A stretch of 49,862 nucleotides of DNA from Candidatus Kaiserbacteria bacterium. GTDB lineage: Bacteria > Patescibacteriota > Minisyncoccia > Phycocordibacterales > Phycocordibacteraceae. The stretch is from NCBI GenBank assembly GCA_029288835.1, contig JARIGN010000034.1:1-49862 (forward strand). Direction: 5' to 3'. Of the stretch, positions 12,001 to 48,462 are shown in pieces. Position 1 is the first letter of the stretch; every line of letters begins with the position of its first letter. The translations under genes were made by a program, and so were the position numbers. The notes beneath the pieces were generated by a model, which saw nothing but the letters and a program-made list of their open reading frames with translations, had not been told where the DNA came from and made no database searches.

Positions 12001-12508
12001 TTCAACGAGCGGCTCAAACGGAGGAAGCAGTACGTCTGGCACAAGCGGCTCAAGCACCGCTAATCCAAACGCGCCGGTCGTGACACTCAAGGGAGACGCG
12101 GCAATCAGCATGGTACAGGGCACACTGTATGTTGAGCCGGGCGCTACAGCAGTCGATGCTTCGGGAACCGACATCACGAGCTCCATCGTCGTGAGCGGCT
12201 CGGTGGATGCAAATACCCCGGGCATGTACACGCTTACGTACACCGCAAAGGATGCAACAGGGAACACGGGCAGTGCATCACGTGTGGTCTCGGTAACGGC
12301 AGCGCCTTCGCTTAGTTCCGGCAGTACTGGCAGTGGCTCCACGAGCAGCGCAGGCACTACTTCAACAAGCGGCACAACAAGCAGTGGGGCTTCGGCAAGC
12401 GCCGCAGCAAGTGATTCAACAACGAGCACGAGCGGTTCTACGAGCGGAACCACGTCAACAGGCTCAACCGACACGAGCTCCTCAAGCGGCACAACCAGCG
12501 GAACTTAG
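2..12508 (+). CDS. Giant repetitive surface/fibre-like protein (5'-partial): YadA-head-like repeats, tail-fibre-like GIGTTSP repeats, LVIVD propeller, S74 chaperone domain, Ser/Thr/Gly-rich tail
   Basis: Frame is open from base 2 with no stop upstream of the ORF-track TTG at 179 (ASSLTSVGTLTSLGVSGLSSLANVTAANATTTNHFSST...). Dozens of 'NxAIGxxAL' and 'VGIGTTSPWAxLSV' repeats. Confidence 0.95.
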   Translation, partial: ASSLTSVGTLTSLGVSGLSSLANVTAANATTTNHFSSTLTANTASFGATATSSFSSTGALTLASALTVPNGGTGQTSFTAGNLVYGSGSGALSSVATSSISVGSGISVTSGTLGAQVGGTNVTLGIANGAVTNAMLANSTISGVALGGTLANLSSTDSTLTFSGSYNGSAAQTVGLNLGNANTWTALQQFNGNASTTQLTTTGNTYLASAGGKVGVGTASPWSTFAVSSYGGNMSYGDTNSNLTFSIASSTNATPSYSNPNGQGNRTLAMNVYTTLSVAQGTTERIINGDTTTQNYYWNSQSASGNSITFDFGAGQRELVTEITYYQSDASNMGTWQAQGSNDGSTWTNIGSTFTLGGAATETISTLSGNTNYYRYYRLNGVSGTVSNSPWVYQFTFKIASLNVVAKAQAFSTDGTNDTGTVLSLESGGGAVTIGAETAPESTLSVRGNASIGDATYTATEAPTNGLIVQGQTFIGTNTANSTNSTAALTVNGAIRDYSDYYQLSDTNTPIESFSTGVIGWSPDVHIASAADTGLGRNAAGVVEVNTGTLGSLGTLVAANVGIGTTSPYQQLSVAGNAVIANGVLSVTHGAVNIDQYSTYQIGGQTFAYASSSTNNLAIGVGAGTPFQYDDFHTGNTAVGNLAMNNNLGDFNVAVGYSALTSNVNGSDNVAIGTQALSSNTDGNYDNAIGSDSLNANTIGIHNEAFGYDSLLSNTSGSDNNAIGFDAMATNTTGSSNEVMGSYAMQTSSSASHNVAIGEYSAYGLQSSNNVVVGDNALTSDINGGGNTALGAWSAAGGPGFAGDVSSTTAVGYYALYNEMGSAALNTALGYQAGYGLTTGSSNILIGASTITDALNQVTTGSNNIAIGNDVVVPSSTANNQLDIGNLIYGTGLDGTDTTVSSGNIGIGTTTPAARFSVAGNELIGGNSVITGNLTLPTLAAPAGTFLAVNTAGQVIATTTPTSGVSSVSNSDGTLTIAPTGGAVVASLNLAHANTFTALQQFLGNASSTYISANLASFGATATTTIGTNGVITTPNIIDSGIAANKLLYTNGSSQLSAVTLPGYVTLTSGTLAISQLPIAQGGTNATSFATNGNAVYYNGTALVTAAVGTAVTTPYASSTQLSVSGQTYLTNASSSLLSVSGSTYLATAGGNVAIGATSTPASLLSIAGTANFAAATSTIYSALRLNGDNLALPAGTPITAGPGLSLGGPTAVQNGMYISGRYAYVGNSSGSFTILDVTNPAAPSVISTTNTGVTGSTRVFVSGRYAYVTATTGNALVIFDVSNPNAPTKLSTITTGLSSPNSVYVSGHYAYVTSASNNSLVLFDVSNPAAPVQVGSTSAGLSTPNEVVVSGTYAYVTTGNALVAFDISNPVAPAKLGSIASGAGGSLSVSGRYAYVLSNTGSLSIFDISNPTSIPSPVGSVNGLGTVGLSVSGRYAYAVGPQLTIVDVGIPSAPVVASTLSGLGGLVDVFVSGRYAYTTNTSSLIPIDIGGIETNSAMIHSLEAGNLQVRNDIIAQGQLQVSGGLNVGAGGIFSSGPLAVSVASTTQANALSATFQGYVGVGTTSPTSLFSVGGNAFIGGNAAITGTLTLPALTTNALTYTNSTGQVSSVTLPSYVTLTSGTLAISQLPIAQGGTNATSFTTSGNAVYYNGTALATAPLTSAVTTPYASSTVISTTGNAYVGATLSTNAINATGAVNINGTTGYLSVDTLPILYASSTLSDFSLGYMAGAATTTTGTNNFALGNQAMRAVTSGSGNMAVGNNALQSLSTGQHNTAMGYSANGTTSGGSDNTVIGYLTTLSGQFLSNATVIGSQAKGGPNGVVLGYEAGYNQGVGNNNNTFIGYQAGYSNTTGANDVFLGYNIATTTTTGSNNIAIGYDVSFASTTASNQLDIGNVIFGTGLNAEGTNLPTSANIGIGTSSPYQTFSVAGNSVITGNLTLPSLGTPSGTFLAVNAQGQVIATSSGGVSGITSVSNSDGTLSVSTAGGAVTASLNLAHANTWTALQQFNGNASSTYLSANLASFGATGTTTISSAGVITTQGLTNNALTTNTLLYANGSKQESSVTLPSYLTLTSGTLAISALPNAQLANSTISGVALGGTLANLSSTDSTLTFSGSYNGSAAQTVGLNLGNANTWTALQQFNGNASTTGLTSTGSTYLATTGGNVGIGTTSPSQALSVNGSISLSSSTLLYWNNNPILTQGPLVTVNNSTTNSLFLGYGAGTNFPNTDAYGTVGIGAGAFHFLNAPNLENTAVGGDAGYDDTTGGGNTIVGMHAMGVSNSSANIAIGNDAYSRASGSGGANIAIGRAALYDGNPDSEVAIGLNALQGNSNVAYITGTPTTGDTITLTVSSTGSTPTGAPFGPVTGLPITYTYTVQAGDTLSTIASALATNLNTQAANVQGNGIFGIVQSITPGDGTAAVVFQGMPSAWNLSFTKSVTGAGTEVVSYQGGASCANCIALGSNAMEGLGISSTTVDDIAISNFAGVNLTTGQFDTYMGAFSGLHTTSASFNTCVGPNTCEADITGYWNTAFGANALTNATGYANTAIGISAGSSVTSGANNILLGNGDGSATLTTGSNNIIIGQHLDTPTSGTNNFLDIGNGIFGTGLSGSGLVPEGLIGIGTSSPYATLSVFAGGDYASHSASTVFAVGSSTAGTATSTLFSVLSSGNVGIGTTSPAYALDVNGSIQSNGNLYFSSAPSNGNLNGMIYVGGTPILSTFNYGNNGTVTTLGQNIFMGQGAGNTTTGSTATANYQSSYNIGIGYTALSANTTGFNNLAVGPQALLSNTTGVDNVGLGLNALNGNQGGQINTAVGVNSLAGNIGGNSNVGVGFNAGEYMSDGVTLNTSSGNSVYLGSGTESLGVSDSNEIVIGSSAVGAGSNTVTVGSTTITKTLLNGTVGIGSSSPIALLTLQAPSSNTGQILDIASSSGASYLHMTASGNVGLASTSPWGLLSINGNGLGANMPQFVVGSSTATNFLITNGGRTSIGGTNLDPYGSSLSVTGSAHIAGTLSVSAGNAGFSNVGNFTFNDTTGDLSYAAVGSGSTKNFIFNQTGNVGIGTTTPYAKLSVFAGGDYAARAASTLFAIGSSTAGTATSTLFSVLSTGNVGIGTTSPVATLGINGSIGVNASQLYLASNGFVGIGTTTPVRALDVAGNGEKQSQILIEDNNAIVTANNHYYGLQVVNGVFNINAVNDNYSTSTAFTINQNNNVGIGTTSPWAQLSVDTSNMPAGIPQFFVGSTTGTNLIVANNGYVGMGTTSPFANLSVMAGDDYLSHPSNTVFAVGSTTAGTATSTLFSVGSQGSITWGGNVNVAADAAFNYTGAYTGGFTLQYLGVGKFNANASQTIFNQASVGNSVAAANGTYQFTPAANTGMQASLADYPRMVYNFGVTNTRASGAVTNTNDIKLYPSIEGYSSAGVASAETIASTTALYIAGEPTAGPLATLTNSYGLFIGATTTTAVTASTTNTYGLAVQASAFGTNNYAAEFLNGNVGIGTTSPFANLSIGMASTTNAFVVGVAGSTTPSFIVKSANNNGAVGVGTTSPWRSFAVSGTVSLANLTAAGTSGSALCLSSTNEVVVNSGVQSCTVSSQRFKNTIQSSNTGLSEVLALNPVTYYLNSDTNHTDQQYGFIAEDANKVDPRLVDLNAQGQIQSFRYEEYTAVLTKAIQQLAGAYSVTNLSNLGSTSPTVSSSYAGNSSAAIAVDATGNVAIAGNITAANLSTANVTASGNATVAGDATVSGTLNAHTYEVPGAAGDLTAFANLTVGSSTYASAITPDGGINIYKLAIANTSSIAALATQTAALATQTDSISTQLTSLTARVSALEAGAAAATASLANASSTSSNLLSASTTAVVNALSELGVLIQKGVAQFDTLVVRDLVFSKDSTGSSAAGSGTVLTGNTTALVTNAHMLAGSLVSVTVTSNYVGTWHVANKQDGSFQVIFSVPQTTDVTFDYVIIQTQGQIATSTPDTTGSPFSWLAQFFGASSTNSTTSNATPSGTNGSGVSTSGSNGGSSTSGTSGSSTANPNAPVVTLKGDAAISMVQGTLYVEPGATAVDASGTDITSSIVVSGSVDANTPGMYTLTYTAKDATGNTGSASRVVSVTAAPSLSSGSTGSGSTSSAGTTSTSGTTSSGASASAAASDSTTSTSGSTSGTTSTGSTDTSSSSGTTSGT
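830..1200 (+). other. Discoidin / F5-8C-like jelly-roll domain inside the giant CDS
   Basis: ERIINGDTTTQNYYWNSQSASGNSITFDFGAGQRELVTEITYYQSDASNMGTWQAQGSNDGSTWTNIGSTFTL...YYRYYRL resembles F5/8C-type domains. Confidence 0.6.
3639..4480 (+). other. Seven LVIVD-type repeats, predicted beta-propeller domain
   Basis: Seven tandem '(V)SGRYAYV...L.IFDVSNPxAPxxxxS' units read directly from the translation. Confidence 0.8.
10751..11010 (+). other. Peptidase_S74 / intramolecular chaperone (endosialidase-type) domain within the giant CDS
   Basis: SSQRFKNTIQSSNTGLSEVLALNPVTYYLNSD...QYGFIAEDANKVDPRLVDLNAQGQIQSFRYEEYTAVLTKAIQQL. Confidence 0.85.
12075..12305 (+). other. DUF5011 / bacterial Ig-like C-terminal domain of the giant CDS
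   Basis: PVVTLKGDAAISMVQGTLYVEPGATAVDASGTDITSSIVVSGSVDANTPGMYTLTYTAKDATGNTGSASRVVSV. Confidence 0.75.
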
Positions 12509-20991: not shown

Positions 20992-21951
20992 ATGGGCAGG
21001 CTCACAAAAGCACAGATTGGGGCGATGGTTGCGCTCGTGGTTATTATTGCGTGCCTGGTGGCAGTCTATTTTTTTCACGCACCCAAAGCATCTCCTTCAG
21101 TTTCAAATGGAATAGGAAAGGTGGGCGTTTACATGAGCTATTATCCGGTCGGCTTGCTTTATTCAACAGCCCTCTCTACATCTTCTACCCCTACTCTGTA
21201 TGCAGTGCCTCACGCACCAAATAAACTGGTACTCGGCATGGCAGGCGATGCCTCTACCACCTACTACCTTATTTTGGGAGCAGATCAGCTGCATTCTGAT
21301 CTCTTCATGTCGCATGCAAGTGATCCAAATCAGCCTCTTTTGCAGCTCACGCATTCGCAAACGCTTAAAGCAAATCTCACCTATGACCCGGGCTCGCATA
21401 TGGTGGCGTACCAGTCTGTGCCACTCGCAAAAAATACAAATATGTTCAGTACGCTTCCGTGGGAGGTTACTTTGTATAATACGTATACTAATAAAGAGGT
21501 TGCACTTCAGTCTGGAACGAAACCGCTTCTTATTGCGGGAGGTCAGTATATATACTATCTAGCAACCTCAACGGTGAATGTTACGGGCATAAATGCTCAC
21601 TCGGCTTCGAAAGTAGTTCTCCAAAACGCTCGGTTTAATACTGCTTATGCTTTCGATCCAAAAACGTATATGCTTGCGCTCTATAACCCGACCTCGCAGA
21701 GCATCAATTATTTTGATATGCACGGAGTTGATACCGCAAAATACCTTTCTTCTGAATCAGTCGCATTTTATCCAACCTCCATACTCATTGACGGCAACAC
21801 TACCCTAATTGCTGGGCCAATTAAAGGAGATTTGAAACATTTCCTCATACAAACTATACGGGGAAATACAGTTAGTACGCCGATACAGCTCGCAACACCG
21901 CAGCCTGGTTTGATTCCTCAGAATCTTACGCTCTTATCCTCATCTTCCTGA
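20992..21951 (+). CDS. Cassette 1, gene A: membrane-anchored extracytoplasmic protein (paralogue of 30960..31901)
   Basis: N-terminal TM (IGAMVALVVIIACLVAVYFF); shares KA[NH]L[TS]YDP.SHMV.Y, GGQY.[VY]Y and AGP blocks with 30960..31901; ATG 20992 chosen over the upstream TTG. Confidence 0.85.
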   Translation: MGRLTKAQIGAMVALVVIIACLVAVYFFHAPKASPSVSNGIGKVGVYMSYYPVGLLYSTALSTSSTPTLYAVPHAPNKLVLGMAGDASTTYYLILGADQLHSDLFMSHASDPNQPLLQLTHSQTLKANLTYDPGSHMVAYQSVPLAKNTNMFSTLPWEVTLYNTYTNKEVALQSGTKPLLIAGGQYIYYLATSTVNVTGINAHSASKVVLQNARFNTAYAFDPKTYMLALYNPTSQSINYFDMHGVDTAKYLSSESVAFYPTSILIDGNTTLIAGPIKGDLKHFLIQTIRGNTVSTPIQLATPQPGLIPQNLTLLSSSS

Positions 21952-21953
21952 TT

Positions 21954-23900
21954 ATGAACTTTTTACAAACACAGCATATGAAATGGCTTTTCATCCTTGG
22001 GATCATGGCATCACTTTTTTTCGCAGGAGTAGTACATGCTGCCTCGTATAACTACATCCCAAATGGTGAGACTTCATCCTATTATACGTCGCAGCCACCG
22101 ATGACCGATACTTGTACTGATGCGTATGGAACCTATCATAATGGTGGGTCGCCAATTGGTATTGGGGGGTGTTACTACCCAAATGGTTCTGATTCTTGGG
22201 GAGATCCTCCAGGAACTATTAGTCCTGTATCCACTTATCCAGCATATGGCACTTCATGTGCAGCGGATGCGGCAACGCTTGGTATATCTACCACCCAGAC
22301 CTCCTACTGCGCAGACACTACTCTCAATTATGTGCAACCCTATGTATACATACAGTGGCTTGGTGGACCACAGTCGAGTGGATACGCCCAAGTAGGCATC
22401 AACCACTTCAGAACTTTTAGTTATAGCGACCCTTCTAACTCAAATGCAAGCCAGGGAGTGGCATATTCCTGTGTAAATAATCCTTCACAAAGTGATTATT
22501 GTACGGTTTATGTAAACACCGTAGCGGCAACGCTCCCCGCACCAACCGCTACTCTCGCAGCAAACCCGAGCACTATCACGGCCGGGGGTACGACCTCGCT
22601 CACCTGGAGCCAGACCAATGCAACCTCATGCTCTATTGATAACGGAGTCGGGGCCGTAACCGGCAGCAGCGGAACGGTCTCGGTCAGTCCTGGAGCGACC
22701 ACTACGTATACGATTACCTGTTCCAACTCCCAAGGTTCAGCAACCGCCCCTGCAACGGTAACAGTGACTCCTGCACCCCAGCCTACCGACACTCTCACGA
22801 TTAATGGTTCAACAAACGTGATAGTCTATAACAATACTGCCGTAACGCTGGCCTGGGGGGCGCAAAATGCAACAAGCTGCAGCATTAGCCCGAGTGTAGG
22901 GACGGTCTCTGCGTCCGGTGGCTCACAGCAAGTCACGCCGCCAAGTAACACGACCACTACCTATACCATCACCTGTACTGGCGCGACGGGCACTACGCCT
23001 GCCACCGCCACTGCACAGGTAACGACTGTTCAGGAAACCTCACCAACCGGCCTCTCCGCAGCCTGCAGCGCTGACGGCACGAGTGTCACGCTCTCGTGGG
23101 CTCCGACAACGGGCGCGGTAAACTATAACGTGCGCCTCGATGACGTGAGCGAGACAAAGACCAGTTCCTGTGCCTTTAACTGGGTATGTAGCTCGCCCCC
23201 TGACTACTACAATAACTACTACACGCCAACCTCCGTGTCATACCCAACCACTCCCGGTGATACCTATAATTGGTGGGTAGACTCCGGAAGCTCGAGCTAT
23301 ACCACGGTCGTGAACGGTCTTGTCTGTAAGGCACCACCGTCTCCTGCGCCGAGCTGCTCCATCACCGCAAATAATGCTTCTTCCGTTACTATTGCTCCAG
23401 GGCAGTCGGCAAATATCGCATGGTCTTCCACTAATACGAAGTCGTGCACCGCAACGGCACCGTCGAGCGGTTTCAGCACCGGCAATGCCGTATCAGGAAG
23501 TGCTTCCACCGGCGCGCTCAGCACATCTGGTACCTATCCGTATGACATTTCATGTCTCGGCAATGACGGCTCGACCTGTAATGCGACCGTCGCAAATGTC
23601 ATTGTTTCTGGGCCTTCAGCGACCCTCACGGCAAATCCAACCCGCGTCGCTAAAGGCGGCACAACCGCGCTTTCTTGGAGCTCCACGAACGCAACAAGCT
23701 GCTCCATTACGCGAAACGGTGTAGCATGGACGACCCCAGGAACTGGTTCAGGTTCTGCCTCGCTCACTGGCACCAACGTTACGGATACCTCACCTCTCAC
23801 TACCCAGACTACCTACAAGCTCACCTGTACGGATGCCTACAGCAACAGTTCCAACGCGTCGGTTACGGTTAATGTGGCGCCAAACTTCCTTAACTTCTAG
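21954..23900 (+). CDS. Cassette 1, gene B: secreted Cys-paired Ig-like repeat protein, C-terminus VNVAPNFLNF
   Basis: Signal peptide (MKWLFILGIMASLFFAGVVHA); repeats 'TWSQTNATSCSI...TYTITC'; starts 2 nt after the stop of gene A. Confidence 0.88.
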   Translation: MNFLQTQHMKWLFILGIMASLFFAGVVHAASYNYIPNGETSSYYTSQPPMTDTCTDAYGTYHNGGSPIGIGGCYYPNGSDSWGDPPGTISPVSTYPAYGTSCAADAATLGISTTQTSYCADTTLNYVQPYVYIQWLGGPQSSGYAQVGINHFRTFSYSDPSNSNASQGVAYSCVNNPSQSDYCTVYVNTVAATLPAPTATLAANPSTITAGGTTSLTWSQTNATSCSIDNGVGAVTGSSGTVSVSPGATTTYTITCSNSQGSATAPATVTVTPAPQPTDTLTINGSTNVIVYNNTAVTLAWGAQNATSCSISPSVGTVSASGGSQQVTPPSNTTTTYTITCTGATGTTPATATAQVTTVQETSPTGLSAACSADGTSVTLSWAPTTGAVNYNVRLDDVSETKTSSCAFNWVCSSPPDYYNNYYTPTSVSYPTTPGDTYNWWVDSGSSSYTTVVNGLVCKAPPSPAPSCSITANNASSVTIAPGQSANIAWSSTNTKSCTATAPSSGFSTGNAVSGSASTGALSTSGTYPYDISCLGNDGSTCNATVANVIVSGPSATLTANPTRVAKGGTTALSWSSTNATSCSITRNGVAWTTPGTGSGSASLTGTNVTDTSPLTTQTTYKLTCTDAYSNSSNASVTVNVAPNFLNF

Positions 23901-23960
23901 GCTTGCATTTCCGCCGATTTTCAGGCATACTCCATGCACTATCCACGTTAAGAAAAAGGC

Positions 23961-24599
23961 ATGATTACGTTAACCGCAACACCACGCACCATCACCGGCA
24001 AGACTTCGAGCCGCCTCGCAAAGGAGGGGCAGATGCCTGCAGTTGTCTATGGCCCAAAGCAGGAGACGGTCTCAATCTCTCTTCCCGTCCTCGAATTCAA
24101 GCGCATCCTCCGTGAGGAAGGCGAGTCGAGCGTCATTGAGCTTTCTGGTGTTACCAAGGCTCCGCTCCAGGTCCTCATCCACGAGGTAGATCGTGACCCT
24201 GTCACCGGCCAGCCACGCCATGCAGACCTCTACGCTATCGAGAAGGGCGCAAAGGTTGAGATTTCTATCCCTATTTCCTTCATCGGCGAAGCTCCAGCGG
24301 TGAAGCTGGGTGCAAATATCGTAAAGGTGATGCACGAGCTCCCAATTGAGGCAGAAGCGGCAGACCTTCCGCACGAAATCGAGGTAGACATTTCAAGCCT
24401 TGAGAATTTTGGCGACCAGGTCCACGTGAGCGACATCAAGCTTCCAAAGGGAGTCGTTGCGACGGTTGAAGCAGAGGAGGTCGTTGCGCTCGCGCAGGAA
24501 ACCCATGAGGAAGTTGAGGCAGACACTGCTGCTCCTGACATGGACGCTATCGAAGTAGAGCAGAAGGGCAAGGGCGAAGTGGAATCAACGGAGGAATAG
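23961..24599 (+). CDS. rplY: 50S ribosomal protein bL25/CTC (long form)
   Basis: ITLTATPRTITGKTSSRLAKEGQMPAVVYGPK...VLIHEVDRDPVTGQPRHADLYAI; acidic C-terminal tail. Confidence 0.93.
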   Translation: MITLTATPRTITGKTSSRLAKEGQMPAVVYGPKQETVSISLPVLEFKRILREEGESSVIELSGVTKAPLQVLIHEVDRDPVTGQPRHADLYAIEKGAKVEISIPISFIGEAPAVKLGANIVKVMHELPIEAEAADLPHEIEVDISSLENFGDQVHVSDIKLPKGVVATVEAEEVVALAQETHEEVEADTAAPDMDAIEVEQKGKGEVESTEE

Positions 24600-24679
24600 C
24601 AAAACACACCTTTGAAGTGTGCGCTCCAGGCCGCTAGGCCAAATCTTACACACCTCAAAGGTGTGTTTTGCTATTCCTC
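24591..24679. repeat. Long-hairpin element copy 1: 31-nt arms (one A/C mismatch) around conserved 27-nt core 24622-24648
   Basis: Arms gaggaatagcaaaacacacctttga-A-gtgtg / cacac-C-tcaaaggtgtgttttgctattcctc; core cgctccaggccgctaggccaaatctta. Confidence 0.9.
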
Positions 24680-24709
24680 TCTCGAGCTTGCAAGTTATTT
24701 AGAGAAAAC

Positions 24710-24735
24710 AAAAAGCCGGCGAGAGCCGGCTTTTT
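24710..24735. terminator. Rho-independent-type terminator, bidirectional
   Basis: aaaaagccggc-gaga-gccggcttttt. Confidence 0.85.
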
Positions 24736-24823
24736 GTAAGTTTCACTCCGCATGATTATGCGTGAGCAACCCTCATCAAGGCTAATAGTATTCCTGAGAG
24801 AATGGACTGTCAATATTGTGCGG

Positions 24824-24892
24824 TGCCGGCAGAGGGATTCGAACCCTCGGAGCGAAACTTGATGAGGGTTAGCTCTACACCATGCTGCCGGC
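24824..24892 (-). tRNA. Atypical tRNA-like element (perfect acceptor stem and T-arm, no standard anticodon arm; isotype unassigned)
   Basis: Minus strand GCCGGCA...GAGGG-TTCGAAT-CCCTC-TGCCGGC-A; 69 nt; canonical D and anticodon arms could not be folded by eye. Confidence 0.5.
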
Positions 24893-25018
24893 TTACTCTA
24901 ACCGTACGAAATTTCTTTTCAATAAATCATCAAAAAGTCCTAAAGTTTCCCTGAGTTTTATATTGGAAAAAGAAAACACAGCGACCAGAAGAATAGAAGT
25001 GGTAGCAGGCACGTAGGT

Positions 25019-25111
25019 TCGAAATCATACAAAATAAGCTCAAAAAGTGTGTAAGACTTGGCCTAGCGGCCCGGAGCGTACACTTTTTGAGCTTATTTTG
25101 TATGATTTCGA
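25019..25111. repeat. Long-hairpin element copy 2: perfect 32-bp arms; core 25051-25079 in opposite orientation to copies 1 and 3
   Basis: tcgaaatcatacaaaataagctcaaaaagtgt / acactttttgagcttattttgtatgatttcga; reverse complement of core acgctccgggccgctaggccaagtcttac. Confidence 0.92.
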
Positions 25112-25139
25112 GCACGTCCGCGTGGTATACTGATATTCC

Positions 25140-26567
25140 ATGCAGAAAGGGGGCTTCAGGTTCTTTTTTGCGCTACTCGTAACCGCAATCATAGGAGGAA
25201 CGGCGCTACTTGCCGGGCCCCGTTTTATGTACGCCCAGACGGCAGACACTTCCGCTTCAACCGACGTGTCCGCCCGACGTGCCGAGCTTCAGGCCCAACT
25301 GAACGCGCTCGACTCTCAGATTGCAGACACTCAAAGCACCCTTAATACGCTCCATTCCCAGCACACCTCGCTCCAAAACCAGATCGATACCCTCACCGCG
25401 CAGATTAAAAAGTCGCAGCTCCAGCTCCAGGCGACGCAGCTCCAGATCGAGGCGTTGAAGAGCAACATTGTCATCCAAAGCAACACCATCACCGAGCTCT
25501 CTGGCCAGCTCACTAACGAGCAGCAGACCTTGGCACAAATCATTCGTCAGACCAATCAGATTGATAATTATTCGCTCGTGGAAGTGGCGCTTTCTTCACA
25601 GGACATCTCAGGATTCTTTGCGGACCTTGATTCATTCAATGCCATAAACCAGGAGCTTAATGCTTCGTATCACCAAATAACTGATACCCGCTCCGCGACC
25701 GAAGACCAGAAGTCTGCCCTCGAAGACCAGCAGACCCAGGCTCAAAAGCTTGCGACCGAGCAGTCCCTCGAAGAGGCAGCCATCCAGAGCGAAGAAAGCC
25801 AAAAACAGGCACTCCTTACCCAGACCAAAGGACAGGAAGCTACCGAGCAGAAAATCTATAACGTGCAAAAGCAGTCCATCGCGCAGATCCAGGCAGAACT
25901 CTTCGCCCTTGCGGGTAGCTCTGGTTCAATCTCTCTGCCAACCGCTATCTCCCTTGCAAAAACTGCCGGAGCAGCGACCGGCGTGCAGCCAGCGCTCATT
26001 CTCGCCATTCTCAAGCAGGAGACTGACATAGGAAAAAATATCGGTACCGCGCATTACCAGGAAGCAATGAACCCGACGCGCGACGTGCCGGTCTTCCTCA
26101 CTATTGCGCAAACCATCGGCTTTGATCCAAACACCGTTAAGGTCTCTGCAGCGCCTTCCTATGGCTGGGGCGGTGCAATGGGCCCAGCCCAGTTCATTCC
26201 TTCCACCTGGGCCTGCTACGGTGGCTTCGTTAACAGCACGACTGGCGTCTGCGGCAAGGGGACAGACGGCACGTACGCAGGGCCTTGGGAATATAACGCC
26301 GCAAAAGATCGCATTGCGAAGCTCGCGGGCCATCCAAGCACCCCGTCAAACCCCTACAACAACCTCGACGCTTTCACCGCCACGGCGCTCCTCATGGCAG
26401 ACAATGGCGCCACCGCACAAACCTTTAGCGCTGACAGGGAAGCCGCGCTTCGCTACTTTGCCGGCTGGGGCAATGCCGACAATCCTGCCTATGCCTTTTA
26501 CGGAGACGACGTGATGGCCTTTGAAGCACAGTTTGAATCAGATATTCAGACCTTGGGCGGAAGTTAG
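25140..26567 (+). CDS. Secreted coiled-coil protein with C-terminal MltB-like lytic transglycosylase domain
   Basis: Signal/TM N-terminus; Gln-rich coiled coil; ILKQETD catalytic-Glu region; YGWGGAMGPAQFIPSTW. Confidence 0.85.
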   Translation: MQKGGFRFFFALLVTAIIGGTALLAGPRFMYAQTADTSASTDVSARRAELQAQLNALDSQIADTQSTLNTLHSQHTSLQNQIDTLTAQIKKSQLQLQATQLQIEALKSNIVIQSNTITELSGQLTNEQQTLAQIIRQTNQIDNYSLVEVALSSQDISGFFADLDSFNAINQELNASYHQITDTRSATEDQKSALEDQQTQAQKLATEQSLEEAAIQSEESQKQALLTQTKGQEATEQKIYNVQKQSIAQIQAELFALAGSSGSISLPTAISLAKTAGAATGVQPALILAILKQETDIGKNIGTAHYQEAMNPTRDVPVFLTIAQTIGFDPNTVKVSAAPSYGWGGAMGPAQFIPSTWACYGGFVNSTTGVCGKGTDGTYAGPWEYNAAKDRIAKLAGHPSTPSNPYNNLDAFTATALLMADNGATAQTFSADREAALRYFAGWGNADNPAYAFYGDDVMAFEAQFESDIQTLGGS

Positions 26568-26619
26568 TGTTGTTCCCTGTCCCCACTGAATACGACTGTG
26601 CTTGGTTTATACTAAAGAG

Positions 26620-27543
26620 GTGAATGGCATATCTCGGGAAAAGATTCTTGCCACAGGTGGCATAGGGTTGCTGGTACTCGTTATTCTTGCGGGTGGCATT
26701 TACTATTATTTCTTTTCACCTGAGGGAAGAAATGCAAACCACCTAAACGCCGAGCACGCCCGATTTTATGTTGTAGCGGGAGATAGGGTGCAATGGTATG
26801 AAATCCAAGGCACTACGGTGAATGCTGTACGAGGTCCTGCAGACTTTGATACGAGCTCGGTCGATGTTATCCAGGCTGCTCAGCCGATGAAGTCGGGGGA
26901 TACACCGATACTCGTGTTTAACCCGCCAAACATCATGCAGCTCGTGGCAATGCGGGGTACGCCGCCGCACTACTCGGTCTATCTCTCAAAAGACTGGCTG
27001 CCAAAGATTGGCGTTGCTGATGACGATTCTGGTGACGTGGTCTTTGCTGAGTATATAGCTACGAGTACCGCACAAAAGAGCCCTTCAAAGGGTCAGTGGA
27101 CGTTAGTGGGAACTACACTCGAAGAAACCATGCCAGCAGGAACAAATCTTGGTACCGGCTTTGATCCCGTCTTTATTCCTAAGAGCAATAGAAGCTTCCT
27201 TGCGATAGGTCCTGAAGGACTTGTACAAGTGGGTGCGGAGGGCGGTCGCTCTACGGTCGTAAATGCGCCAAATCCTGATCTGCCTGCCTCGGCTGTTGCA
27301 CCCGATGCACAAACGGCGCTTTTGTATCATGACCTTACCCAGCAATTTGACATATTCTCTCTCTCGACAATTCCTGGGACTAATACTATCCAAGCCACCT
27401 ATCGTTCCTCCCTCAAAACTCCTGCCCTTGCTACAGCCTTCCTGGATACCAGTACGTTCATCGTACAAGTAGACGCACATACCTTCGTGCTCTATGAAGT
27501 TACTGCCAAGGGGGCGATCAAAATTAAAACGCTCACGCTATGA
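26620..27543 (+). CDS. Cassette 2, gene A: membrane-anchored extracytoplasmic protein (GTG start preferred)
   Basis: N-terminal TM (ILATGGIGLLVLVILAGGIYYYFF); the ORF-track TTG at 26602 lies before a TATACT box at 26608, so GTG 26620 is likelier; ATGA overlap with the next gene. Confidence 0.75.
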   Translation: MNGISREKILATGGIGLLVLVILAGGIYYYFFSPEGRNANHLNAEHARFYVVAGDRVQWYEIQGTTVNAVRGPADFDTSSVDVIQAAQPMKSGDTPILVFNPPNIMQLVAMRGTPPHYSVYLSKDWLPKIGVADDDSGDVVFAEYIATSTAQKSPSKGQWTLVGTTLEETMPAGTNLGTGFDPVFIPKSNRSFLAIGPEGLVQVGAEGGRSTVVNAPNPDLPASAVAPDAQTALLYHDLTQQFDIFSLSTIPGTNTIQATYRSSLKTPALATAFLDTSTFIVQVDAHTFVLYEVTAKGAIKIKTLTL

Positions 27544-30500
27544 AATTCCCATACAATAATCTCCATTACCTATTCATTGTATTTATATGTCTATGGATGT
27601 GCATACCCTCTCCATCATATGCTATCGGTGTAGGATTTAATTCCTCCGGGTATACCTCGACCACAGGGGGGAGATGTTCCGGAACTGCTGCAGGCTATAG
27701 CGGTACATTTGATGGAAATCTTAACGATATTCCGACCTATCCTGCGGATTACTATGTACCTAATAAATACTGCATAACGGTTACTGATACCCCGTCCTGT
27801 ACAACGCAGCAAAGACAAAGCGGCACGTGGACCGATAACTACACGTACTATTTTTATAATGGAACGGGAGAGTCAATTAATACCGGCTACAGCTACCAGT
27901 GCACTGACTCAGAAAGCATTCCGTATGCAAAGAACAGCTGGTATGCATCGATTTACCCCACGCCCCAGGCGACCATTACCCTTAGTCCTACAAGCATTAA
28001 TGCAGGACAGACGGCAACACTTGGCTGGTCTACGTATCCAGGAAACTTCACCTCGTGTACGGGTACCAACTTCAGCACCGGTGGCGCGACCAGCGGCAGT
28101 GTTTCCGTTAGTCCTTCCCAAACGACCACCTATAGCATCAGCTGTACATACAGTGATGGAAATGGTTCGCATACCGCAACTGATAGTAAGACGCTAACGG
28201 TTGTACAGCAGCTCGGTGCTTCTACCGTGAGCTGCTCGGTAAACCAAACCACCGCGCAGCAAAATGCGCTCGTCACTTGGACGGCAAACGTCACTGCGGG
28301 TGCTGGTACGCCACCCTATTCCTATCTTTGGAATGGCGATGGGTTCTTGAGTGCAAAGCCAACCTCATCTTCACCCTCTGGAACCTATACCTCGGGAGGA
28401 AAGAAATATGGCATGGTAACTGTGAAAGACTCTTCAGCGAATTCCTCCAATACAACCTATACCTACTACGATAATGGTGGCTACCAGTGTACGGGGGCAA
28501 GGATTTCCGGTGCTGATAATCGAGACGTGAATGACTTTGGCACAGAGCAAGATGCCTATAAAGACGCAGTAGGGAATGCCTATGTTCCAGGTATGTGGAA
28601 TGGTGCGCCCGCTGATTTCTTTAATAATCCACAAAATTATTGCGTAAACGTGCAAGTTACACCGCAGTGCGGGAATCCCCAGCATTTTAACGGAGTATGT
28701 TATTACAATCTAGATGATTACCTTTATACCGGAAATACTTCCGCACCCTATACACCTTCATATTCTGAACAATACGACCAATTCGGTGCTGAAACAGTGT
28801 CGGCACAAACGACAACCTCTGGCCCCCAATCCACAACGCAGCAGTGTACTAATTACGTAACGATTAACAGTGCACCGAACCAGCCAACGCTCACGTGTCC
28901 TGCAACGGGAATTGTAAATCAGCCGGTAACCTTTACCGTACAAGGCACCGATCCCGATGGTGATCCTATTAAATATGGTATGGACTGGAATGGCGACGGC
29001 ACCGTGGATACCTGGTCACCTTCGTCGGGCACCGTATCAAGCGGTACGTCACAGTCACCCACTAAGACTTGGACCACGGCAGGAAGCTATATTGTCCAAG
29101 CCTTAGCACAGGACTCTAATGGCAACACGGGCACCTGGTCGAGCCAGTGCACGGTCGCCATCAATTCTGGTGCTCCGGTACTCACTGCAACTCTTCCGTA
29201 TACCTCTACAACCACCGTTGCGGGTGTTTCAGTCTCTCTTCCTGCAACAATTTATAACAATGGCTCGGGGGCTACCGGAAAATATTTTTACGATACCTAT
29301 TGGCTCTCAACGTCTCCAAGCATGAGCGGGAAGACGGATCCATTTACGTATCCTTCAGCTACGCATGGAATTCCCGGCTCCTTTGAGAGCGGTGAACCGG
29401 GTGGTTTTCCTGCAAATTATAACGAGACGATTGGCACCGGTGCGATTCCGGCAGTTACGTATAATTTCCCCTCAACAGGAACTTACTACCTCCAGGTCTG
29501 TGCTGACCAAGACCAGTATGGAAACAGCACAATTGTTACACCCGAAAGCAACAATTGCTCCGGCGTCGAGACTATTACCGTGGGGCCAGCAAGTCCTACT
29601 AATCTACAAGCTTCCTGTAATGCTGCAGGAAATTCAGTCAATTTAACGTGGTCACCTGGTACTGGAGACACGGGCGGATATATGGAACGCATCTATGATT
29701 CGCCGTATTCTCCCGCCGCAAGTTGTCCAGTAAACGGCACTCCTTGGCAACTCTATACCACGGATTATGCGACCTGTTATCCGAACCCAGACGTGCCACA
29801 GGCGTCAAATTCCATAACTAATTATTCAGTTACACCGGGTCAAACCTATACCTGGTGGATTCACGGTTGTGTCAGTGCAGGTAATTGTAGTACCCCAACA
29901 GTAAGTACCTTTACGTGCGCAGCCGTGCCGGACCTTGAAGCAAATACTCCGACCGCCACAAGCGGCACGCCTGGTGCCACCCAAACGCTTTCAGGAACGG
30001 TATTTAATTCTTCCTCAGCCAGCGCTTCGGCACCTTCCGGCTTCCATAACATCATCCAGGTGTGTGACAACACTTCCGGCACCTACTGTGGTGCGTATGA
30101 TTCAGTCAATGATACCGGCGCGTACCCAAGCTCCCTTGCTGTGGGTGCGACGAGCGCCGCGGTAAGCGCCAGCGTTTCAATTCCAACGAACGCGGGAACC
30201 TATTATTACCGCATCTGTGCGGATGAGACTGGCTCCGGTTCCAGCTTCAGCCATTCAAGCGCTACCGAAGGTGACACGACCAACAACTGCAGCGCGTGGT
30301 CCCAGCTCCAGGTCACCAGCCCAACCTGTATGGGATCACCAACCAGTGCTGCGATTGGCCAGACGGTCACCTGGACCGCCCCTTCACTTAGTGGTTCGCC
30401 AACCTATTCCTGGAGTGAAGTAGGCGGAAAGGGGACTGCTATCGGCGGAACCACTAACTCATCCTTTACTAATTACTACAGCCAAGGCGGTAGCTACACG

Positions 30501-30890
30501 GTGGCGCTTACGTATTCGTACGGCAGTCCATCGACCATTTTCTGCACCCCGGTTACCGTACCAAGTCCGGCAGTTACCCTCACCACTACGCCTGACCGCG
30601 TGACCAGCGGCACGCTTGAGAAAACGCTTTCCTTCAGCTGGACCTCCACGAGCCTCACGGATCCTTCTAATACGTGCTCACTTACCAGAAACGATGGTAC
30701 CACCATACCCGGTGCAACAGGGCTTTCGCCGACCGGTTCCTACAACGGCACCACCAATAACGACACGAACACCATCACAAAACAAACTATCTATACGATT
30801 ACCTGCTCGACCGGTACATCGGCACAGCCGGGCACCCCAGTAACTTCCACCTCAACAGTGAATATTGTGCCTTCCTTCACTAATTTCTAG
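27540..30890 (+). CDS. Cassette 2, gene B: secreted multidomain Ig/PKD/CARDB-like protein, C-terminus VNIVPSFTNF
   Basis: Signal peptide; repeated Cys-paired Ig-like domains; CARDB-like 'YYLQVCADQDQYGNSTIVTPESNNCSG'; ATG overlaps the TGA of gene A. Confidence 0.88.
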   Translation: MKFPYNNLHYLFIVFICLWMCIPSPSYAIGVGFNSSGYTSTTGGRCSGTAAGYSGTFDGNLNDIPTYPADYYVPNKYCITVTDTPSCTTQQRQSGTWTDNYTYYFYNGTGESINTGYSYQCTDSESIPYAKNSWYASIYPTPQATITLSPTSINAGQTATLGWSTYPGNFTSCTGTNFSTGGATSGSVSVSPSQTTTYSISCTYSDGNGSHTATDSKTLTVVQQLGASTVSCSVNQTTAQQNALVTWTANVTAGAGTPPYSYLWNGDGFLSAKPTSSSPSGTYTSGGKKYGMVTVKDSSANSSNTTYTYYDNGGYQCTGARISGADNRDVNDFGTEQDAYKDAVGNAYVPGMWNGAPADFFNNPQNYCVNVQVTPQCGNPQHFNGVCYYNLDDYLYTGNTSAPYTPSYSEQYDQFGAETVSAQTTTSGPQSTTQQCTNYVTINSAPNQPTLTCPATGIVNQPVTFTVQGTDPDGDPIKYGMDWNGDGTVDTWSPSSGTVSSGTSQSPTKTWTTAGSYIVQALAQDSNGNTGTWSSQCTVAINSGAPVLTATLPYTSTTTVAGVSVSLPATIYNNGSGATGKYFYDTYWLSTSPSMSGKTDPFTYPSATHGIPGSFESGEPGGFPANYNETIGTGAIPAVTYNFPSTGTYYLQVCADQDQYGNSTIVTPESNNCSGVETITVGPASPTNLQASCNAAGNSVNLTWSPGTGDTGGYMERIYDSPYSPAASCPVNGTPWQLYTTDYATCYPNPDVPQASNSITNYSVTPGQTYTWWIHGCVSAGNCSTPTVSTFTCAAVPDLEANTPTATSGTPGATQTLSGTVFNSSSASASAPSGFHNIIQVCDNTSGTYCGAYDSVNDTGAYPSSLAVGATSAAVSASVSIPTNAGTYYYRICADETGSGSSFSHSSATEGDTTNNCSAWSQLQVTSPTCMGSPTSAAIGQTVTWTAPSLSGSPTYSWSEVGGKGTAIGGTTNSSFTNYYSQGGSYTVALTYSYGSPSTIFCTPVTVPSPAVTLTTTPDRVTSGTLEKTLSFSWTSTSLTDPSNTCSLTRNDGTTIPGATGLSPTGSYNGTTNNDTNTITKQTIYTITCSTGTSAQPGTPVTSTSTVNIVPSFTNF

Positions 30891-30959
30891 CGGTTTCGTT
30901 AGTCACAGTTTTCTGCACTTCATCTTCGTATAGAAAAAACGGGTGCTACTATAGTTCCT

Positions 30960-31901
30960 ATGGTCCACGTATCAAAAATACGTTGGATAGTGGTTGTGAT
31001 CCTTGGGGTAGTGGTTCTGGGAGGAGGAGTATTTCTTTACGAGAAAATATTTACTAAAAGCTCTCACGTACCTGGCGCGAATTCCGCGCCCGCACAAGGA
31101 ATTGTGTTTGGATCACCGCTTTCTGGCACGCTCTACACCCTTACTTCTTCAGGGAACACCGCTCCTTACACACTTCCCGGAATCTCCACAGCCATTCAAG
31201 AAATAGTGGGGGACGCCACCACGAGCTATATCCTGGTTCCTGCTGCCGACGGCACAAACTCTAGCTTGGTGGCCTGGATTCATGCAGGCGCAAAGCCACT
31301 GCAGCAGATTGTCCCGACCAGCCCGAGTTTCAAGGCACACCTTTCGTATGATCCTGCTTCGCATATGGTCACGTATGCGGTAGTGACCGAAAAGCCGCTT
31401 GCTTTTCCCACGTCAAAGGTTGTCTTATACAATCCTTTCGCACGAACCGAGACGACACTTTTTGATGGTGCGCAGCCGTATCTTTTGCCCGGAGGACAGT
31501 ACGTGGTGTACCAAGCAAGTTCCTCTATAGAGCTCGCGGCAACGCAAAAAGGGAGCATACCGACCATGCTCATACAAGATGACCCGTTTCGGTCGGTCTT
31601 TGCGGTTGATCCAGCATCCGAAACGCTCGCGGTGTATATACCTCGTACGCACACCATCGATTATTACGACATCCACTTCAAGGATTCCATAAAATATCTT
31701 AAGTCTGAATCGATCCCAGATTCCTTAGTACCTACAGCAATCGCGTTTGAACACGGATCGGTCTATATTGCTGGCCCCCGCGATACGGCTTTTACCACGT
31801 CATTTTTTATGGAAGTAGGCCAAAAAACGTACACGACGATTACGAATCCAAAAAAGAATACCCAGCCGGAAGGATTGTTTATGATTGCGCCACAGAAATA
31901 A
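30960..31901 (+). CDS. Cassette 3, gene A: membrane-anchored extracytoplasmic protein (paralogue of 20992..21951)
   Basis: N-terminal TM (WIVVVILGVVVLGGGVFLY); KAHLSYDPASHMVTYAVV, LLPGGQYVVYQASSSIEL, VYIAGP blocks match cassette 1. Confidence 0.87.
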   Translation: MVHVSKIRWIVVVILGVVVLGGGVFLYEKIFTKSSHVPGANSAPAQGIVFGSPLSGTLYTLTSSGNTAPYTLPGISTAIQEIVGDATTSYILVPAADGTNSSLVAWIHAGAKPLQQIVPTSPSFKAHLSYDPASHMVTYAVVTEKPLAFPTSKVVLYNPFARTETTLFDGAQPYLLPGGQYVVYQASSSIELAATQKGSIPTMLIQDDPFRSVFAVDPASETLAVYIPRTHTIDYYDIHFKDSIKYLKSESIPDSLVPTAIAFEHGSVYIAGPRDTAFTTSFFMEVGQKTYTTITNPKKNTQPEGLFMIAPQK

Positions 31902-31913
31902 AAAGAGAACTCT

Positions 31914-34082
31914 ATGAAAACAACTTTGCAAAAACTTTTCTCTTCCTCACAAGCACTCTTCGCCCTCGCCCTCTTTGCCCTTGTGCCTTTCAGCGCCCTT
32001 GCGATGAATACAACAGGGTGGGTGCAATACAACAATGACATATGTGGGGGCACGTCCGCTGGGTATTTCTATGCTGTCAATCCGGTTGCAACCTTTTCCC
32101 AAATTCCCACCTCAAATCTTCCGGCAGACTACACGACGCCTGGCAAGTACTGTATTGATGAAACGACGTGTATGCTTGGCCAAGGATCTCTCGAGGATTG
32201 TTTTTATGTAGATAATGGGACTTCGCTAGTTTCAAATTCTTCTTATACCTCAATCATCCTGCCGGCAGGATCAGCTCCCACGGTCACGCTGACCGCCTCT
32301 CCTCCATCAATCGTCGCGCAAAATGGTTCGTCCAACCTTGCCTGGACGACCGGAAATAGTCCAACTTCCTGCACTATAAATAATGGCGTGGGGACTGTTT
32401 CTACTGCGGGTGGAAATACTTCGGTAAGTCCAAGCACAAGCACCACTTACACAATCACGTGTACTAATGCGTATGGAAGCGCGAATGCCTCGGCAACGGT
32501 CACGGTAACACAGCCACCAAACCCCACTGACAGCATCACGGTGAATGGTTCCTCAAGTGTAACGATAACCGCGGGGAATTCCGTAACGGTGGCCTGGGGT
32601 GCAACAAACGCCACAAGCTGCAGTATTAATAATGGCATTGGTTCGGTCTCAGCCTCGGGAGGTTCGGTAACCCAATATCCTTCTTCAAGCATGACCTACA
32701 CCATTACCTGCAGTGGATTGACTGGTACGACTGCCGCTACGGCGAGCGCGAGCGTCACGGTCACGCCTGTTCCCGCGGACATGTATGCGTCCTTTACGGC
32801 CGCTGAGCAAAATCTCACCGCAACAGCAGGACAGCCCGTTTCCGTGCAGGCGACGGTAGGGAATAATAGTAGTACCGCTACGGGAGTTCCGGTTAACACC
32901 ACCTTTTGGTTCAACAGTTCTCAAAGTACCAGCGGTGCCTCGTATAAAATCTTCTCAAGCTGCCAGCCTTCAGGATGTCCCGGGAACTGGAGTGAGACCG
33001 AAGGTACGAACCTCGACTCTACCTTCACCTATACTTTTAATACGCCTGGAACCTACTATTACGAAGTGTGTGCCGATGAAGACCAAAACGGCAGCTATAC
33101 CGTAACCGACTCTAATACGGCAAACAACTGCTCCGGATGGGGAACAATAACCGTACAGGCTGCACCCGACCTCACCGCAACAACGCCTTCGCCATTTTCT
33201 GATTATATCGATAGCGTGCATTCATTCACCGATACTATTTCGAACCTTTCTCTTACCAGTAGTGCTACGAGTGGATTCCACAGCATCATGCAGTTATGTG
33301 ACTACACAAACAGTACCTATTGCGGAACCTATGATCTGGTAACCGATACCGGAGCCTATGGCAGTACCATCCCTCCTAACAGTAGCGGCTCGGTTACTGC
33401 GTCAGGTATCAGCGACCCGCATACTGCAGGTACCTATTACTATCGTTTCTGTGCAAATGAGTATGCGACGTCCGGCTCAAGCTTTGCTCAATCAAGCGAA
33501 ACGGAGACTGACTATAGTAATAACTGCAGCGGTTGGGCTCAGTTTACAGATAATGCGCCGTATGTCGTATGCTCAATCACTTCGCCAAGTGGCACGATAT
33601 ATCCAGGTACCCCTATTTCCTATGCTGGTTCAGAATATGGTTTTGCACACTATGCAACCTTAACCTGGGATGGAGGCGCTACAGGATCCACCTATTCAAA
33701 CAGTTATAGCTCCCCGGGACTTTATACAGTGCAGCTCGTCGGAAGCTATGGAGGCGGCATAGAAAGCGCAACCACAACGTGCTCGGTAACGGTTTCCTCT
33801 CCGAATGTGACCTTAGCGGCTAGTCCGGACCGCGTGGCAAAGAACACCACAGGAGTAGGGCTCACCTGGACTTCGGGTGGCCTCACCGACCCGAATGACC
33901 GCTGTGTGCTTTCGAGAGGGGACATAGGGACCGTCGACAGTACCCAAAGTACCTCAACCACCTATATTGATCCGAATGCCATCCTTTCACAAACGCTTTA
34001 TACGATAGCTTGTGGGAATGGGGTCTCAAGCAGTACTGCTTCCACGACCGTAAATATCATTCCGGGGTACTCAAACTTCTAA
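31914..34082 (+). CDS. Cassette 3, gene B: secreted Ig/CARDB-like protein, C-terminus VNIIPGYSNF
   Basis: Signal peptide; 'TNATSCSINNGIGSVSASGGSV...YTITC' domains as in cassette 1; two CARDB-like domains. Confidence 0.88.
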   Translation: MKTTLQKLFSSSQALFALALFALVPFSALAMNTTGWVQYNNDICGGTSAGYFYAVNPVATFSQIPTSNLPADYTTPGKYCIDETTCMLGQGSLEDCFYVDNGTSLVSNSSYTSIILPAGSAPTVTLTASPPSIVAQNGSSNLAWTTGNSPTSCTINNGVGTVSTAGGNTSVSPSTSTTYTITCTNAYGSANASATVTVTQPPNPTDSITVNGSSSVTITAGNSVTVAWGATNATSCSINNGIGSVSASGGSVTQYPSSSMTYTITCSGLTGTTAATASASVTVTPVPADMYASFTAAEQNLTATAGQPVSVQATVGNNSSTATGVPVNTTFWFNSSQSTSGASYKIFSSCQPSGCPGNWSETEGTNLDSTFTYTFNTPGTYYYEVCADEDQNGSYTVTDSNTANNCSGWGTITVQAAPDLTATTPSPFSDYIDSVHSFTDTISNLSLTSSATSGFHSIMQLCDYTNSTYCGTYDLVTDTGAYGSTIPPNSSGSVTASGISDPHTAGTYYYRFCANEYATSGSSFAQSSETETDYSNNCSGWAQFTDNAPYVVCSITSPSGTIYPGTPISYAGSEYGFAHYATLTWDGGATGSTYSNSYSSPGLYTVQLVGSYGGGIESATTTCSVTVSSPNVTLAASPDRVAKNTTGVGLTWTSGGLTDPNDRCVLSRGDIGTVDSTQSTSTTYIDPNAILSQTLYTIACGNGVSSSTASTTVNIIPGYSNF

Positions 34083-47691: not shown

Positions 47692-48462
47692 TTAGCTTCC
47701 AGTCTGGAGGATAGTAACGGCAGCGGCGGCGCTGTTGTTTGCTTCGTTTGATTCGGTAATTGAATCAGTTGGGTCTACCTGGACGGTGATGGTTTGTGCA
47801 GGGCCAGGGATCGCGTTATTGAAACCGAGCGTGAAGACCGTGTGGTCGCCAGGGTTGAGCGAAGGCTCGACCGGGGAAGCGAATGCTGTGTTGTTGTAGC
47901 TTGGAATCTGCGCGCCGAAGTTCCAAGGACCGGTTACGTTGGTACCGACGTTTGCCACAGAGAACTGCACCGCAGGATGTGCACCTGGAGGGATGATGTT
48001 TGCGGGTACGAAAGAATCAGTTGAAGGGCCGGCAAGGTATCCTGTCGCAATGATGTGCACGGTGAGGTCAGGAAGACCGTATGGTGCTTGCGGACGAGAA
48101 ACTGCCGCATTTGTTTCAGAAGGCTCCGTAGCAGGCGCTACCGCTGCAATAGCAGGGGCACGATAGCTCGATGGGGGAATGAGGGCGGTTGTCGTGCTAG
48201 AAGTGATGATGGTGCCTGATCCGCCGAAAGGAATGGTGGAACTTGAGGTTACCACCGCGAGGCCGTCATCGCCGTCTTTGTTGGCATGGTTTTGCGCGAT
48301 GCCAGAAATCTTTGAAACTGCGACAGGTATATAGCGCGTGCTATAGATAGCAAGCGCGATGCCAATAATAAGGAGTGCAATGAAACCAACCACCGCGAGG
48401 GCATTAATAGCCGCGGTTTTGCCGGTATCCTGCTGGTTTTCTTCAACTATTGTTGTTGCCAT
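47692..48462 (-). CDS. Membrane-anchored CARDB-domain protein
   Basis: TM (INALAVVGFIALLIIGIALAIY); DLTVHIIATGYL...VQFSVANVGTNVTGPWNF...VDPTDSITESNEANNSAAAAVTI. Confidence 0.85.
   Translation of the reverse strand: MATTIVEENQQDTGKTAAINALAVVGFIALLIIGIALAIYSTRYIPVAVSKISGIAQNHANKDGDDGLAVVTSSSTIPFGGSGTIITSSTTTALIPPSSYRAPAIAAVAPATEPSETNAAVSRPQAPYGLPDLTVHIIATGYLAGPSTDSFVPANIIPPGAHPAVQFSVANVGTNVTGPWNFGAQIPSYNNTAFASPVEPSLNPGDHTVFTLGFNNAIPGPAQTITVQVDPTDSITESNEANNSAAAAVTILQTGS

Follow-up and report, generated by a model that had tools for sequence, protein, structure and literature searches.

Little is settled about how the ultrasmall Patescibacteria, which depend on hosts, construct their cell surface and vary it, and a locus from a Candidatus Kaiserbacteria genome raises the question in concrete form: what might a recurring pair of genes, one for a membrane-anchored protein (A) and one for an exported immunoglobulin-like (Ig) chain (B), do at the surface of such a cell? 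We analysed a window of 49,862 nt, which is one complete contig (C21) of a genome of 802 kb in 37 contigs, together with related genomes that are available as draft assemblies. The reading that we favour, with the scales about level for and against it, is that of a modular cassette for surface display, in which the C-terminal domain stays constant and serves for docking, the outer part varies and the membrane partner can be exchanged.

Three A–B gene pairs in one window

All six ORFs of the preliminary description were confirmed. They lie on the forward strand as three pairs whose A-to-B gaps, taken from the ORF coordinates, are +2, −4 and +12 nt. In the first pair, A1 (20992–21951) encodes a one-TM protein with a predicted extracytoplasmic six-bladed beta-propeller of the TolB/PD40 type, and B1 (21954–23900) encodes an exported, Cys-rich Ig chain of 648 aa with the tail VAPNFLNF. 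A2 (26620–27543), a divergent member of the A family, starts with GTG in a frame that is open from a TTG at 26602, and its stop codon overlaps the start of B2 (ATGA; 27540–30890), which encodes an exported chain of 1116 aa with PKD domains and the tail IVPSFTNF. The third pair consists of A3 (30960–31901), a paralogue of A1, and B3 (31914–34082), which encodes an exported Ig chain of 722 aa with the tail IIPGYSNF. A3 and B3 share one reading frame in which they are parted by a single TAA and four codons (30960–34082); read-through would yield a 1040-aa fusion, and the shared frame is probably due to chance. Promoter and terminator scans gave a signal no better than that of shuffled sequences.

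The preliminary description had presented the pairs as a tandem triplication. A fresh triplication is at odds with the window, since pairs 1 and 2 are parted by rplY (L25) and by a gene that we call X (25140–26567, +), encoding a coiled-coil/SLT murein hydrolase with an EnvC-like coiled coil and a lytic-transglycosylase-like domain, and since the DNA match among the three B genes is a single short one of 146 bp at 68%. The shared C-terminal end of the B proteins, also described previously, is real: a degenerate tail-plus-stop pattern occurs at just three sites in the window, all of them B ends, where 0 are expected in shuffles, and across the whole 802-kb genome the same three B ends are again its sole matches.

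The A family and its genomic setting

A1 and A3 are clear paralogues, as had been proposed (36% identity, E 9e-37 in a pairwise comparison). A2 had been taken to be alike in size and topology only, and it has no usable pairwise match to A1 or A3; a family HMM built without A2 nevertheless finds it at E 1.7e-18 (the leave-one-out values are 5.7e-30 for A1 and 1.1e-28 for A3), so that, judged by profile, A2 is a true homologue of the other two. Its nearest relative is an A protein of another genome (G139). Single-sequence searches with A1 or A2 recovered almost nothing in relatives, and the family seemed rare before profiles were used.

Taken alone, A1–A3 have no confident match in Pfam and no family match in NCBIfam, whereas 5 of 30 family members match Pfam PD40 and the A profile retrieves TolB at E 2e-10. 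The AF2 model of A1, built with 30 aligned relatives (pLDDT 85.7, pTM 0.79), consists of an N-terminal helix and an all-beta propeller, for which the best Foldseek matches in the PDB are designed six-bladed propellers, TolB and kelch domains (E ~3e-9, TM-score ~0.55). On profile and model, A belongs to the PD40/TolB-like beta-propeller superfamily, with a six-bladed fold predicted. The 29 A proteins checked have a single hydrophobic segment near the N-terminus, preceded in most by a net positive charge, which suggests an N-in topology with the propeller outside; cysteines are few or absent in the same proteins.

A thus resembles TolB of the Tol-Pal system in fold, by both profile and structure matches, and in extracytoplasmic location, but it differs in having an N-terminal TM anchor and no match to the TolB N-terminal domain. 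The partners in the matched TolB structures are, to judge by the entry titles, Pal or a colicin peptide and not a secreted Ig chain. We rejected the assignment of A as the TolB of a Tol-Pal system on account of the anchor, the missing N-terminal domain and a genome in which no Omp85 was found by a search that was positive in 7 control genomes.

A genus-wide profile search located A in 24 of 93 genomes, giving 36 distinct A proteins, one of them at a contig end. In all 35 cases with downstream sequence an exported ORF lies directly 3′ of A, so that the order of one-TM A followed by exported B, first noted in the window, holds throughout. The spacing is nearly always between −49 and +12 nt (in L058 the mechanically called B ORF overlaps A), and among the 29 B ends visible after an A gene, 28 finish in F and one in EI. 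The usual gene order is rplY–X–(A–B)1–3–rpmE–prfA–rpsB; other sites for A–B pairs are the fba/rplY interval, as in this window, and the prfA/rpsB interval in G021. Beyond the genus, A is seldom met (in 10 of the 244 genomes sampled from the order), with a direct A–B pair at L185, L186 and L188 and with one intervening gene, or a cut, at the remaining loci. The preliminary description had named unrelated A folds and a lack of A–B adjacency elsewhere as observations that would count against it; what we found was a single A family and recurrent adjacency. Its interpretation as a surface-diversification locus is a fair one, because both the number of pairs (1–3) and the length of B across relatives (~330–1600 aa) vary.

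Two features of the surroundings deserve mention in their own right. X is the usual upstream neighbour of the A–B array, which it adjoins in many relatives, and it could remodel peptidoglycan at the site of display; with the X protein as query, just two named loci came up, one in an uncultured bacterium and the other in a MAG of Candidatus Parcubacteria. The fba–rplY slot, which A1–B1 occupy in the window, has in G018 just an 80-aa ORF ending in a TM-like segment (L007:6257–6499), which is possibly the remnant of an A gene.

The B chains, their C-terminal end and their partners

B1–B3 appear to be exported, with N-terminal signal peptides judged by eye, and they contain 20–32 cysteines and ~30% Ser/Thr. 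Ig-like blocks are common to the B proteins, with 42% over 336 residues between B2 and B3, and B2 matches PKD at E 2.1e-5 and CARDB below the cut-off. With the signal peptides, the PKD match in B2 and an Ig-like C-terminal model, B fits the bacterial secreted Ig/PKD/CARDB proteins. Two further ORFs of the window deserve notice. One, of 4109 aa (179–12508, +), is a candidate for a very large surface fibre: besides numerous head repeats of the VAIGxxAL type it has five LVIVD repeats, a match to a NedA-like galactose-binding domain, an endosialidase-chaperone domain (S74) and, close to its C-terminus, a bacterial surface Ig domain. The other (47692–48462, −) is a 256-aa one-TM protein with a CARDB match at E 6.6e-8 and without the VNVxP tail.

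The last 105 residues of B1 (23583–23897) are modelled by AF2 as an Ig-like sandwich (pLDDT 89.3, with ~85 for the tail), and profile and tail pattern mark the same domain at 30573–30887 in B2 and 33765–34079 in B3. We found no significant relative of the B1 domain in the PDB, no Pfam family that describes the tail domain and no NCBIfam match to B1–B3 at E 0.1. The last domain of B ends as VN[VI]xPx[FY]xEF exactly at the C-terminus. In the last ten residues of 96 B proteins, which were sampled by profile score and whose ORF starts are mechanical, the pattern is V (92), N (94), [VI], x, P (65), x, [FY] (87), x, E (74) and F (93), and the full motif is terminal in 81 ORFs and internal in no B. 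The domain profile matches 87 of the 93 genomes of the genus, some matches not being terminal, and it reaches its last column in several other families of the order, with ends such as LIPVFQEF and LIPSFEEF.

This constancy might be purely structural. A serious though rather unlikely alternative to the cassette is that the tail, instead of being a docking signal, is where the last Ig domain ends structurally, that the B proteins just have in common a terminal domain which is often duplicated, and that A and B form a surface complex which has no common receptor. The tail may just complete the fold, since AF2 predicts it to be ordered and puts it confidently after the last strand. Duplication is suggested by an analysis of 29 A–B pairs from 18 genomes, in which, for the 19 multi-pair cases, the nearest relative lies in the same genome 14 times for the B C-terminal domain, 7 times for A and 4 times for the B N-terminus. 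Mean identity within and between genomes is 0.56 vs 0.35 for the C-terminal domain, 0.25 vs 0.18 for A and 0.22 vs 0.18 for the B N-terminus; A paralogues often find their best match in another genome, whereas the C-terminal domains resemble each other inside a genome. Duplication anchored at the 3′ end could alone explain this pattern, and 3′-anchored DNA tracts do connect B paralogues: G055 has one of 873 bp (79%), G039 one of 420 bp (81%) and G012 one of 869 bp (75%), which in G012 links a B that has a propeller as partner to one whose partner is of a different kind. What speaks against a purely structural end is that the tail is never found on the internal Ig domains of the same proteins, and that V, N and F are near-invariant at a fixed distance from the stop codon despite unrelated partners.

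Shorter 3′ matches of 36–40 bp were considered as a recombination site and rejected, as most pairs show homology no further than the stop codon, for which constraint on the protein or an ordinary duplication is explanation enough. In G034 the homology of the first two A–B units runs past the B stop into the intergenic region (L062:5860–5990 and L062:11720–11850), pointing to duplication of the whole unit.

The upstream partners of B are varied. Among the 80 B genes that bear the tail and have an ORF upstream, 27 are preceded by A, while 9 follow TPR proteins with one TM (three confirmed by Pfam), 7 a family of ~190–210 aa, 5 the FTQPASAPP family, 5 X directly and 3 proteins with a C-terminal TM; small one-TM proteins of ~100 aa also stand upstream of some, and a number of the upstream ORFs among the 80 are probably spurious. 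The one-TM TPR proteins, of which examples lie 5′ of tail-bearing B genes at L056:1008–1811, L113:6323–7132 and L101:6006–6740, make up a second partner class that apparently extends outside the genus (L158, L163, L171). A is therefore not the obligate partner of B that was proposed earlier: every A with downstream sequence precedes a B, but only about a third of these B genes have an A, and the presence of A in just 24 of 93 genomes means that B in general does not need it. As many B genes follow unrelated membrane proteins, the shared tail cannot be a site for docking to A in particular; its behaviour is that of a module which all the B proteins of a genome have.

Such a variety of partners would also be expected if A and B were mere operon neighbours, A having a sensory or TolB-like envelope role and B being an independent secreted protein. 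Covariation between the two leaves room for this. Similarity among A proteins predicts similarity among B N-termini (r 0.735, p 0.0016 in a score-based test against within-genome shuffles), to a lesser degree similarity in the middle of B (p 0.07), and not similarity at its C-terminus (p 0.09). A mirror-tree analysis on tree distances finds a signal that is weak for the N-terminus (p 0.04) and absent for the C-terminus; the score-based test is the stronger of the two, but both use the same pairs. The orthologous A proteins of G120 and G039 are 65% identical and their B N-termini 70%, while their C-terminal domains do not discriminate. From these comparisons, any A-specific signal would sit in the B N-terminus, which fits a contact between A and that part of B. 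Linkage would fit as well, since A lies right next to the 5′ end of B and the signal becomes weaker with distance. We nonetheless regard simple neighbourhood as improbable, given that A precedes B in 35 of 35 cases, that the pair recurs at several places in the chromosome and also in other families of the order, and that the two genes overlap start to stop or have very short gaps.

Known systems and a proposed display mechanism

Secreted surface proteins of the Ig type that share a conserved module at the C-terminus are already known. The T9SS CTD proteins of Bacteroidota are variable multidomain secreted proteins with one conserved C-terminal Ig-like sandwich (PMC4804311), and the design of B resembles this principle, by which many different secreted chains end in the same conserved Ig domain. 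B differs from them in its motif and in a genome that contains no Omp85, and we rejected B as a T9SS CTD protein because no NCBIfam sorting model matched B1–B3 at E 0.1; SprA_N had no match in this genome, and likewise none in the control genomes. The lack of Omp85 means that there is probably no outer membrane for B to cross, and the lack of Omp85/BamA led us to reject B as an outer-membrane protein with a C-terminal Phe beta-signal.

Host-attached Paceibacteria have secreted Ig/PKD proteins among their most expressed genes, and the highly expressed secreted Ig-like and PKD proteins of Ca. Yanofskyibacterium and Minisyncoccus on methanogens resemble B in these features; the accessible part of that account makes no mention of a membrane-propeller partner or a conserved tail (PMC10936435). 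An archaeal surface-layer protein (PDB 1l0q), which gives a weak Foldseek match to the B C-terminal domain (E 0.017), combines a YVTN propeller with PKD on the cell surface, a mix of modules like that of A and B. Both modules are in one chain there, whereas here they are divided between two genes, with the TM anchor on A and the tail on B. The preliminary description had recognised no named system, and we too found none that matches; the two-gene organisation with its tail appears to be undescribed in the literature searched, whose coverage is incomplete.

Two more specific attachments were weighed against the cassette. It is very unlikely that B is covalently anchored by one of the genome's two sortases (G000:C25:1125–1526, L200; G000:C13:10836–11249, L201) through a non-canonical C-terminal signal: both genes score above the Pfam cut-off and Pro is conserved in the tail, but the tails read xPx[FY]x[EN]F, and B has no LPXTG-like motif, no C-terminal TM and no positive end, for which reasons we rejected it as a sortase substrate. 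Another patescibacterial propeller held outside the cell, on a stalk in the membrane or pilus, is PilX2 of Saccharibacteria; unlike A, it has the seven blades of an RCC1 propeller and sits on a minor pilin that belongs to a type IV pilus system (PMC12206443). Even with this precedent and with pilin-like genes near some arrays, a type IV pilus tip in which A is a PilY1/PilX2-like propeller and B an adhesive shaft is scarcely credible, as the A N-termini carry no pilin leader, A has no pilin domain and the conserved locus, flanked by rplY, X, rpmE and prfA, holds no pilus assembly genes.

The cassette reading draws on the gene structure, the modelled fold of A, the adjacency, the conservation of the tail, the exchangeable partners and the within-genome similarity of the C-terminal domains. 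According to it, A would be inserted N-in through its one TM helix, with the TolB/PD40-type propeller held outside the membrane, and B would be exported and fold as a disulfide-rich string of Ig/PKD-type domains. The C-terminal Ig domain and tail would dock every B of a cell to one shared, hypothetical envelope component. A, replaced elsewhere by a TPR protein or another membrane partner, would contact the N-terminal part of its own B, and may be a membrane-held receptor or assembly factor that guides the folding, assembly or presentation of B. As the unit duplicates, A and the N-terminal part of B would diverge while the C-terminal end is kept, so that a single chassis would present a set of different surface chains, which probably serve to make contact with the host or with neighbouring cells. 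Binding between A and B, a docking role of the tail and an adhesive function are what we infer, and each single contact is held with less assurance than the cassette as a whole. The signal peptides, the kinds of domain and the anchoring of the partner suggest display at the surface, and a role in host contact is suggested by the lifestyle and by the high expression of secreted Ig/PKD proteins reported for host-attached Paceibacteria (PMC10936435).

More tentatively, the cassette may reflect a wider display system of monoderm-like Patescibacteria, a possibility to which we give distinctly less weight, in which the C-terminal Ig domain and tail serve as a general address tag and the membrane partners as cargo-specific assembly factors. 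An envelope component would then read the tag, and variable host-contact chains would be plugged onto a constant chassis. The putative tag domain is present in nearly every genome of a genus of 93 species, and in a quarter of them there is a membrane partner in strict linkage. From the domain one can predict which of the secreted proteins would be displayed jointly, which part of them would vary and which part should be used in seeking a common receptor, and it allows the annotation of many hypothetical proteins in these genomes.
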